In this document: piece after piece, positions 15,040-17,844 of the stretch
Numbering within the stretch: the first letter of the stretch is position 1
Layout: each line of letters starts with the position of its first letter
From: Clostridia bacterium
Lineage (GTDB): Bacteria; Bacillota; Clostridia; Christensenellales; Aristaeellaceae
Length of the DNA: 52,832 bases
Reading direction: 5' to 3'
Assembly (NCBI GenBank): GCA_030529995.1
Contig: JAUMVT010000008.1
Span: forward strand, 6,871 to 59,702
Translations under genes and position numbers: made by a program
Notes under the pieces: generated by a model
The model's input: the letters and a program-made list of their open reading frames with translations, nothing else
What the model was told of the DNA's origin: nothing
Database searches by the model: none

Positions 15040-17754
15040 TCACCCTCCCTGCCGCACCTTTTTCTCCAGCAGCAGTTCCAAGACCCTCAGCCTGTCTTGC
15101 GTCTTCCATGGCTCGGGAACCGGCTTGTTTCGTTCTCTCAAGAGGACGACTCGAAGTTCCGCTTCATCCATTTCGGTGTCTCCGTCCTGAAGGGCATCTT
15201 TCCATTGCTCAAGCGCCGCCGTGTAGAAGGCTTCGGGATGATGGAGCTTGAACCAGGCGCATCGCAGGGCGTTGGACACGAGGGCAGCCGTATGGGCTCT
15301 CGAAAACATGTATCGAATTTTTTTGCAGGCGGCCATATACCAGTCATCTACACCGTGCTGCTGCATAACAGCTGCCATTGCATCGGTGAATTTTCCCCTT
15401 CTGCCCAGATCCTCCATCATTTGATACGCCGTCTCATAGGCAGCACCTTTGCGCAGCAGAAGGCGCATCACGTCCTCCCGGGCTGCCGGCAGCTCACTCA
15501 GCGTGACCTTGCCGGCGTGCAGCATCGCTTTCGTTTCGGCGGACCATACGCCGGTTCCGTGAAGCAGGCAGAACGTGATGATCAGGTCGTTGACGGTCTG
15601 CGGCTGTGTCTCAGGCAGGATTTCCCGTGCCGCTGCTTCGTCAAAGTACGGAATGCCGTAGGTGCCCGTTTCGCACAGGATGCGTCGGCTTGTTGTGCCT
15701 AACGCGTCAGGAGAGCGGAACAAACTCAGCGCCTGCGAATCTGCCAGCGGCACCGTGGCAGGGTCAATGCCTGTCAATTCCCGCAGCCGATCCAGCATGG
15801 GGTGGCTGTTGATATAGCAGCAGGTAAACTTCAAAAGGACGTGATACAGGGTGAAAGCACCGTAATGGGTGCAGGCGCAAATTTCATCATTCTCCCGTCG
15901 GCAATAGGTCAAGGGCGTAAAATCATCTGCGCTGTATGCCCGGGGAATGATGAAATAGCGGCCGGCCTTCGGCATCACCTGACTGCAGAAGGAGTCGAAA
16001 AGCTTTTCCGTAAGCCCGTTGACGGTTGCTTCGCTTGGCGATTGATGATGATCCGTCAAATACTGCCGGGTGAAGCCTTTGATTTCTTCCCGGTCGGGGA
16101 ACACAGGCTCTCCCGCCTGAATCACGTGATCCTTGCCGAACAGGGCCGCCAGCTGCTCTTCTACAAGGGATTGACAGGTTCCGGGAACATCCGGTTCAAA
16201 GTCGGGGCTTTTTTCGCCCTGAAGCCCGAAGCAGGATGCGGGGAAGAGATCCGCGCCATCCCCGCTGCAGATCTCGCCGCATACAGGACAGACTTGTGCC
16301 GGAAGATCCGCACCTACCCGGCAGGCATCCGCCTCCGCCAGCCAGGTATGATGGCAGGAAGGGCAGATGTAATGGGGCGGCAGGGGATTGACGCTTGTAA
16401 TGCCCAGCAGCCATGCTATAAAGGAGGCACCGCACACGCCTCGGACAGATATGGTTTTGCTTTGCTTGCGGACGGCCTCGGCAATCTGCCGGGCAATGAG
16501 ATAATGAACCCAGCTGTTTTGTTTGCCGATCAGTTCCAGCTCCGTTGTCAGACGCTCCTGCACAAAGGCAGGCAGGGGATCCCCGTACAGCGCCTGCGTC
16601 TGCGTCCATGCCAGCTTCGCAACCGTTTCCTCCTGATGGGGAAGGGAGGGAAGCAGGGGACTGCGCGCATCCTGCCGGGGCGGATAAAGGGAAATGTCCT
16701 CATCCACCTGCTCCGCAAGGGCTCGGGAGGCATCAATGACCACCTGCCGGGAAGTTTTTGCTCCGAGGAAAGCCATGGCCTTCATCATTTCATCGGTGGT
16801 TCGCAGGTACAGCTTTCCGGCATCCTGCTCAATGCGGCCTGTGCTGTACAGCAGAATGTTGCGGCAAAGGCTGTCCTCCGGGTCAAGATAATGGGCGTTG
16901 CTTACGGCAACAACAGGTTTCCCGACTGTCTGACCGAGCTTCACCACACGCCGGATCAGGCTCCGTGCCTGAGGCAGATCCATGGGTTCGTTCTCCGGCG
17001 GCTGAATTTCCAAATAATCGTAGAAGGAAGCGATTTGATAAAGCTGCTCCTCCGACGCACCGGAGCGCAAGGCCTGCTGAACCTCTCCCTGATCACAGGA
17101 GCAGCCCACCAGCAAGCCCTTTCGGTATTGCATAATCAGCTCTTTGGTTACGCCAAAGGGATCCTTTTGGCTGCTCGTCAGCAAATGATTCAGGCCTTTG
17201 AGGCCCTCGCTGCTCTTGCTCAGCAGCATCACATGGGTATCCTGCCCATCATTTCCATGCAGACAAAGTTCGCAGCCGGGGATTAGCTTGATCCCCTTTC
17301 GCCGGGCGGCATCAAGAGCCTGCGGAAGATTCATCATGCTGTGAAAATCCGTTATGGCAACAGCACCATGCCCCCAGCAGGCCATCCTTTCCATCAGATC
17401 CACAGGCGAACCGATGCCGTCCAGGACGGATGCGCCTGTTTTTGTGTGCAGTTCCACCCGTGTAACGGGGGCTTCATCCCTTCGCGTACTCATTTGCTTC
17501 TCCCTTTTCGTGGTTCGCGAAACCCATGAAGCCGCACCCTGCCTGTTGTCCTGCTCGGCAAGCAATGTATCCAGGGATACCTCCAGCACCTCTGCCAGCT
17601 TGCAGCATGTTGCCATGCGGGGCTTGGCGCTGCCGTTTTCCCACTTGGACACGGCCTTGTCCGACACGCCTACAAGCTGTCCCAGCTGAAACTGGGAATA
17701 GCCCTTCTCCAGGCGCAGACCGGTTAGCAGGTTTCCGAATGCGTAGTCCTTCAT
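15040..17754 (-). CDS. HTH-PHP-PolC-like fusion lacking polymerase catalytic residues
   Basis: A 904-residue protein. Residues 1-70 are an Xre-type helix-turn-helix (QLGQLVGVSDKAVSKWENG). About 97-300 resemble the PolC PHP domain (RVELHTKTGASVLDG, AITDFHSMMNLPQAL). About 380-870 follow PolC closely, with VRGVCGASFIAWLLGITSVN, the four-Cys zinc site C464/C467/C489/C492, GIPYFDEAA, CKKIRYMFSRAHTAALV and WFKLHHP. There is no exonuclease insert or C-terminal DNA-binding end. The PolC active-site D-x-D is D518-F-E520, the third Asp position is T644, and the QHPGG motif is gone. The PHP motif H-x-H is H103-T-K105. Polymerase activity therefore looks lost. An internal ATG at 17493 with a GGGAG site could yield a form without the HTH. 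Function unknown; a DNA-binding regulator or replication decoy is speculation. Confidence 0.85.
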   Translation of the reverse strand: MKDYAFGNLLTGLRLEKGYSQFQLGQLVGVSDKAVSKWENGSAKPRMATCCKLAEVLEVSLDTLLAEQDNRQGAASWVSRTTKREKQMSTRRDEAPVTRVELHTKTGASVLDGIGSPVDLMERMACWGHGAVAITDFHSMMNLPQALDAARRKGIKLIPGCELCLHGNDGQDTHVMLLSKSSEGLKGLNHLLTSSQKDPFGVTKELIMQYRKGLLVGCSCDQGEVQQALRSGASEEQLYQIASFYDYLEIQPPENEPMDLPQARSLIRRVVKLGQTVGKPVVAVSNAHYLDPEDSLCRNILLYSTGRIEQDAGKLYLRTTDEMMKAMAFLGAKTSRQVVIDASRALAEQVDEDISLYPPRQDARSPLLPSLPHQEETVAKLAWTQTQALYGDPLPAFVQERLTTELELIGKQNSWVHYLIARQIAEAVRKQSKTISVRGVCGASFIAWLLGITSVNPLPPHYICPSCHHTWLAEADACRVGADLPAQVCPVCGEICSGDGADLFPASCFGLQGEKSPDFEPDVPGTCQSLVEEQLAALFGKDHVIQAGEPVFPDREEIKGFTRQYLTDHHQSPSEATVNGLTEKLFDSFCSQVMPKAGRYFIIPRAYSADDFTPLTYCRRENDEICACTHYGAFTLYHVLLKFTCCYINSHPMLDRLRELTGIDPATVPLADSQALSLFRSPDALGTTSRRILCETGTYGIPYFDEAAAREILPETQPQTVNDLIITFCLLHGTGVWSAETKAMLHAGKVTLSELPAAREDVMRLLLRKGAAYETAYQMMEDLGRRGKFTDAMAAVMQQHGVDDWYMAACKKIRYMFSRAHTAALVSNALRCAWFKLHHPEAFYTAALEQWKDALQDGDTEMDEAELRVVLLRERNKPVPEPWKTQDRLRVLELLLEKKVRQGG

Positions 17755-17775: not shown

Positions 17776-17804
17776 AGGGTAGCATCCCCCGCGGGGAATA
17801 ACAA
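17776..17804 (-). promoter_or_regulatory. Promoter with palindromic spacer before the HTH-PolC-like gene
   Basis: Minus strand TTGTTA (17799-17804), 17-bp spacer, TACCCT (17776-17781). The spacer contains the near-perfect palindrome ATTCCCCGCGGGGGAT, centred about 38 bp upstream of the start codon. It is a plausible operator for the protein's own helix-turn-helix domain (inference). Confidence 0.5.
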
Positions 17805-17844
17805 GGCGGATGATGTCGAAGAAAAGTAGAGATTGGGCGCCGGG

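Follow-up and report, generated by a model that had tools for sequence, protein, structure and literature searches.

What can a replicative DNA polymerase do once catalytic residues have been lost from its core and a DNA-binding domain has been joined to its front? This question is raised by a gene in a 52,832-nucleotide stretch of DNA from a Clostridia bacterium (contig JAUMVT010000008.1, assembly GCA_030529995.1), which we refer to in full as the window. Positions 15040-17754 of its minus strand hold an open frame over 904 codons, and the predicted protein joins an N-terminal Xre-type helix-turn-helix (HTH) to the core of a PolC-type DNA polymerase III. On balance, we favour a reading of this protein as a self-regulated one-component DNA-binding protein, in which the dead PolC is the regulatory and probably ligand-sensing half.

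A PolC core without its full set of catalytic residues

The features of the gene are as follows.
15040..17754, minus strand: HTH-pseudo-PolC gene, 904 aa (open frame; Pfam, PDB and NCBIfam matches)
17563..17718, minus strand: Xre-type HTH, residues 13-64 (Pfam HTH_3)
17023..17454, minus strand: PHP domain, residues 101-244, with its metal motif broken at K105, F137 and, further on, N286 (Pfam, alignments)
16111..16623, minus strand: polymerase palm, with the phosphate-binding loop (P-loop) R438-G-V-C-G-A-S444 and the zinc cysteines 464/467/489/492 retained (Pfam DNA_pol3_alpha, alignments)
16195..16203, minus strand: D518-F-E520, at the position of catalytic Asp 1 and 2 (alignment with PolC)
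15823..15825, minus strand: T644, at the position of catalytic Asp 3 (alignment)
15529..15777, minus strand: fingers part, residues 660-742, with H732-G-T-G where PolC usually has HGTD (Pfam DNA_pol3_finger, alignment)
15292..15312, minus strand: nucleotide-pocket motif Y815-M-F817-S-R-A-H821, YMFPKAH in PolC (alignment; pocket residues as named in the available portion of PMC12592400)

The original prediction, made from the DNA letters, described a PolC-like protein with an N-terminal Xre HTH, and domain and structure searches bear this out. Pfam places HTH_3 at residues 13-64 (E 1.6e-12, 47.7 bits against a cut-off of 23), PHP at 101-244 (E 4e-22), DNA_pol3_alpha at 378-548 and DNA_pol3_finger at 660-742, and the palm and fingers fold of PolC is present. 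The closest solved structure, Geobacillus PolC (3f2b), matches residues 89-897 with an E value of 6e-139, the match stopping at position 937 of the 1041 in the 3f2b chain, about 100 residues short of its end. The protein scores 578 bits against an NCBIfam PolC model with a cut-off of 873, and 537 bits against one with a cut-off of 1043. Searches of Pfam, NCBIfam, PHROGs and PADLOC gave no model for the HTH-PolC fusion, its halves matching their own families separately. A structure prediction of the whole protein reached a mean predicted local distance difference test score of 55; the PHP and thumb regions were poor because a single other alignment row covers them, and thus only the HTH and palm/fingers parts of the model were used.

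Residues were checked by aligning the protein to the polC of its own genome and to 3f2b, and the losses that had been predicted were all recovered. D518-F-E520 aligns to the D-I-D of PolC, so that the first Asp is retained and the second is Glu, the third catalytic Asp is replaced by T644, and PKAGRY stands in place of the QHPxG loop. In the PHP domain, H-x-H has become H103-T-K105, and D136-F137 stands where the following motif should read D-H; with K105, F137 and N286 the protein departs from the active motif HHDHEH[C/H]DH given in the available portion of PMC12926913. The DnaQ-type exonuclease, which in PolC is inserted in PHP, is missing, as is the C-terminal part. Some ordinary PolC likewise do without the inserted exonuclease, among them frames with intact Asp in G312 (L058) and in MT836562.1 (L041). 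The housekeeping enzyme is present in the same genome (2.5 Mb, 102 contigs, 92% complete), whose matches include one ordinary PolC frame of 1478 aa (L002, 34% identical to the window protein) and one DnaE-like frame of 1319 aa.

Compared with PolC-type DNA polymerase III (TIGR01405, PRK00448; PDB 3f2b, 9qpc), the fusions share the palm, zinc site, fingers and nucleotide pocket, and the long form also PHP and the thumb region. Unlike PolC, they add an HTH, have a broken PHP motif, have lost two or three catalytic Asp (except in two relatives, G278 and G282), and lack the exonuclease, the N-terminal and OB part and the C-terminal end.

Long forms, short forms and their descent

At E 1e-60, a PolC-type match was obtained in 281 of the 308 genomes in the family of the window genome. 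Three of the matches listed begin at the HTH: the window protein and those of G282 (44%) and G278 (41%). A query of HTH plus PHP added a fourth genome, G253, where the frame ends after 409 residues; that copy (L094:8164-9393, G253:C70) adjoins a MobA/MobL gene, and the stretch around them also encodes a serine recombinase. When 395 genomes of the order, G278 and G282 not among them, were sampled (G278 query, E 1e-150), only the match of the window genome began at the HTH. Other genomes thus carry the fusion, and no intact catalytic Asp was found elsewhere in the window protein. It is extremely improbable that the frame is an assembly artefact in which two genes were joined: most related records are metagenome assemblies by their titles, yet G278, G282 and G253 all share this junction, and 16 short forms have another.

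These short forms lack PHP, the exonuclease, the C-terminal part and most of the thumb. Sixteen were aligned, L118 being excluded as a contig end cuts it, and Asp 1 and 3 are missing in all 16. For the catalytic Asp of the short forms, the loss does not fall beneath the background of their columns, which is itself low (8568 of 20000 draws; for the pocket test 13 of the 16 were kept after near-copies were taken out), and the argument from this loss rests on the absolute conservation of these Asp in real polymerases. Such conservation of the three palm Asp across the C family is reported from some 2000 genomes in the available portion of a 2013 survey (PMC3919608).

G278 and G282 resemble the window copy in that the exonuclease and C-terminal part are gone and the PHP motif is broken. 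They retain D-x-D and the third Asp, as well as the thumb spacing, and thus catalytic loss is a feature not of all fusions but of the window copy and the short relatives. Such retention would suit a low-activity accessory or translesion polymerase under the control of the HTH. We regard this as very unlikely for the fusions, given E520, T644, the missing QHPxG loop and C-terminal end, the broken PHP and the lack of an exonuclease in the window protein, and the absence of Asp 1 and 3 from every aligned short form.

In a tree of 41 rows, from which five PolC loci were left out, the window copy, G278 and G282 form a clade (support 98/83) and the short forms a separate one (100/100). As the window copy groups with copies that retain the Asp, two or more losses of catalysis are probable. 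The window branch measures 1.7, against 0.2-0.4 in its sisters, and part of the protein may thus be less constrained. Ratios of nonsynonymous to synonymous substitution rates (dN/dS, Nei-Gojobori) are 0.08-0.18 in ten short-form pairs, which are non-independent, and 0.17 for G278 and G282; between the window copy and G282 the synonymous sites are saturated (dS 3.0). Purifying selection acts on the short forms, and it is very likely that they are a maintained family of pseudo-polymerases.

Could the window copy instead be a decaying paralogue, an accessory polymerase that has lost its active site and is set to disappear? Its long branch, the Asp triad in its full-length relatives, the shortened copy in G253, C-terminal fragments in G1197 and G1311, and a genus represented by one genome would all suit this. 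On the other hand, the 904 codons are open and hold no stops, although in the absence of selection 255-1290 replacement changes would have been accompanied by 13-67 nonsense ones, and signs of a pseudogene were thus not found. Furthermore, the copy retains its HTH, zinc site and upstream site and the greater part of its pocket, and the short forms are examples of dead copies that have been maintained. We therefore judge decay to be rather improbable and maintenance of the window copy as a pseudo-polymerase to be likely.

In the family of G669, a match was found in 13 of 295 genomes, four of them partial: G1275 lies at a contig start, G1197 and G1311 hold the C-terminal fragments, and G1216 has a distant match without HTH. 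The last (L270, G1216:C191:512-1741) is a short form at 30%, in a 417-aa frame, with the match beginning past the HTH. Class-wide, a short-form query gave no match in 391 genomes, a set that had no positive control. A single-sequence scan of the genome contigs gave no match, and a profile scan did. In plasmid and phage collections, the matches listed are PolC without HTH; three contiguous phage-record matches are PolC without the exonuclease, and two of these run off the end of their record. Viral contigs gave one 18-residue match and nine HTH loci; no PolC part was seen in those read. G254:C139 was considered as a headless relative and rejected, being a PolC end in a split frame.

The candidate operator and promoter

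Two further features lie upstream of the gene.
17813..17832, minus strand: candidate operator TCTCTACTTTTCTTCGACAT, 78 base pairs (bp) 5' of the ATG (window and genome site scans)
17776..17804, minus strand: candidate promoter TTGTTA-17 bp-TACCCT, 8 bp past the operator; its geometry is common to most members and its consensus match is weak, 7/12

A 20-bp site that fits the consensus is found 5' of the start in 19 of 19 members, the window included, with 13-18 of the 18 scored positions matching (L122 and L128, with too little upstream sequence, stood outside the scoring). Thirteen members score at least 15, which 11 of 9500 shuffled upstream regions reach. The site at 17813-17832 is the sole match in the 52.8 kb of the window at up to three mismatches (0.04 expected by shuffling), the window genome has one site at up to two mismatches, and the exact site occurs once each in G000, G278, G282 and G253, before the HTH-PolC gene. 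In 17 of the 19 members (counted without a shuffled control), 7 or 8 bp separate the site from the best −35 box downstream of it, whose spacer is 16-18 bp, and this geometry is kept where the distance from site to ATG differs (L124, L127); for G278 and G253 the promoter scan preferred other boxes. The short-form palindrome TCTACC-N3-GGTAGA occurs at 13 exact places in 12 genomes, against one control place. Ten of the 13 precede an HTH start, two of these at contig ends where the rest of the gene is not seen, and an extra site in G678 precedes another HTH gene; G677 and G1166 have no exact place.

With these sites, we consider it quite likely that HTH-PolC proteins bind DNA and regulate their own genes. 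A placement upstream of the −35 box is more activator-like than simple-repressor-like, and in this, as in the polymerase-core half, the fusion differs from Xre/HTH_3 autoregulators such as P22 c2, SinR and the restriction-modification C-proteins. The original prediction of a pseudoenzyme turned into a DNA-binding regulator is thus strengthened by orthologues with the same fusion, by purifying selection on the short, dead relatives, and by the conservation of the upstream site and, largely, of the promoter geometry; DNA binding itself is a prediction.

Sensor or effector: what the polymerase half may do

How might such a protein work? First of all, the Xre head would bind the 20-bp site just 5' of its own promoter, perhaps in an activator-like manner given its position. 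Second, the polymerase half would be a PolC that has lost, or is losing, DNA synthesis, while it retains the phosphate-binding loop, the zinc site and the fingers pocket. Third, it would most likely signal a bound nucleotide, a deoxynucleoside triphosphate (dNTP) or analogue, to the HTH. P-loop, zinc site, pocket, HTH and operator are kept while Asp, exonuclease, PHP site and C-terminal end (in short forms also most of the thumb) are lost, a pattern that suggests ligand binding without synthesis. Nucleotides are the likeliest ligand that we can propose, tentatively, from the retained motifs. Slightly less tentatively, a new class of regulators may exist, in which C-family polymerases, having lost catalysis independently in the window lineage and in the short forms, act as sensors of nucleotides or replication state, control their own promoter through the Xre head, and spread among Clostridia as a self-contained 1.5-kb gene.

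One-component regulators derived from enzymes, such as ROK, MocR and BirA, reuse an enzyme fold as a ligand sensor beside an HTH. Proteins of this kind are familiar and what is new here is the source fold, since we know of none that comes from a replicative DNA polymerase. ImuB belongs to the Y family, acts with DnaE2 in lesion bypass and has no HTH. It is described as a catalytically inactive homologue in the available portion of PMC12926913, and the fusion is like it in keeping a DNA polymerase without catalysis. That same portion of this 2026 survey of more than 3000 species describes inactive Y-family polymerases and inactive proofreading domains, and no inactive C-family polymerase; the literature searched described neither an HTH-PolC fusion nor a C-family pseudo-polymerase. 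The absolute conservation of the Asp would have an exception if dead PolC cores joined to a DNA-binding head are indeed maintained. A maintained family would also offer a direct route to ask whether cells sense nucleotide supply, or PolC inhibitors of the same pocket, through a retired polymerase. As long forms with and without the Asp coexist with nearly thumbless short forms, they further provide a test of how a replicative enzyme turns into a sensor.

Several points weigh against the sensor reading. Close relatives of the window copy retain the catalytic triad, one pocket residue of the copy is changed (Y1284 to L), a dNTP may bind weakly without Asp-held magnesium, and the long branch makes relaxed constraint possible. 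Long and short forms are joined against PolC with weak support (63/95), and most copies come from metagenome assemblies. HGTG replaces HGTD in 18 of 19 fusions; as a private mark of the fusions it was dropped, since among 71 ordinary PolC (64 HGTD, 4 HGTN, 1 HGTA) two carry HGTG, both from short-form genomes. As to the operator, its consensus was tuned on the sequences that it scores, four members (L096, L123, L124, L141) reach 13 of 18, as do 6% of shuffled regions, and at up to two mismatches G278 has four real against four reversed-control sites and G253 three against three; the missing control for the promoter geometry belongs here too. Finally, the only target established is the gene itself, which fits an autoregulated effector equally.

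In that alternative, the HTH serves autoregulation only and the dead polymerase half acts on DNA ends, the clamp loader or a phage replication protein, blocking or diverting replication as a decoy, antiphage factor or selfish module. A solitary gene with its own promoter, site and terminator-like hairpin, its unrelated neighbourhoods, its presence in genomes with distant polC and the few extra operator sites would all suit it, and the G278 and G282 copies lie near genes matching ShosA, MkoC, RTasHel and GajB models. On the other hand, short forms lack most of the thumb, PHP, the exonuclease and the C-terminal part, and no PolC part was seen in the HTH proteins read from the nine viral loci. 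Furthermore, among 59 short-form neighbours only single members match defence models (MADS mad2, mad3 and mad8, and AriA/GajA/PtuA-type models), the other families being mainly HTH or ordinary among those listed (25 of 37 PADLOC, 25 of 78 Pfam). We hold an effector to be unlikely, if less so than decay. The decoy or antiphage role raised by the original prediction has thus found little positive support, since the window protein (P0001) matches PADLOC models through its HTH alone and the short-copy neighbours listed are mostly ordinary, yet the defence-model matches near G278 and G282 speak for it. Near the G278 copy are DprA/ShosA-like and MkoC-like genes, and near that of G282 a UvrD helicase with an inserted exonuclease domain (L038:13496-19777, L037:13408-16077).

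An ordinary polC is also present in ten of ten short-form genomes, and G672 has both on contig C24. Between G669 and G671 the short forms are 96% identical against 72% for polC (proportion of synonymous differences 0.15 against 0.74). G671 and G678 show the opposite, with polC at 92% and the short form at 56%, a pattern likewise at odds with simple vertical inheritance of a single copy. Of the 17 short-form loci, at most three have any one neighbour in common. Pairwise DNA homology mostly ends 83-170 bp 5' of the ATG and 30-105 bp 3' of the stop, extending further in L118/L126 (about 285 bp upstream) and L117/L128 (about 240 bp downstream). No transposase lies within the homologous unit; target duplications were not looked for. 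Silent sites of the HTH-coding stretch are more conserved than the rest in related short forms, though not in G678 pairs.

Minor observations concern the same genomes. The first 210 bp of the gene are far more conserved at silent sites in L116, L117, L120, L121, L122 and others, and contigs of G670 and G673 end inside the HTH-coding stretch; repeats, or one locus split in two, may account for these ends. In genomes with a short form, the Asp of HGTDVW in the ordinary PolC is often replaced by N, A or G (L219 of G673, L220 of G677, L224, L226, L227, L228), with G, as in the fusions, in L219 and L228. G278 (L038:8991-9620) and G282:C116 (L095:1421-2083) also encode small proteins, about 200 aa long, that combine the HTH of the fusions with a piece of PHP, the G278 gene ending about 30 bp within the start of the HTH-PolC gene. 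An HTH of the same subclass is joined to a C-terminal part of about 200 aa in L097/L115 (G278:C3) and L098 (G282:C32), and a two-mismatch operator site in G278 lies about 500 bp upstream of the L097/L115 gene. A similar HTH is joined to other enzyme-like parts in L100, L130, L131, L132, L135, L138, L142, L144, L153 and L154, the partner in L100 matching AAA_28 and, below threshold, CYTH.
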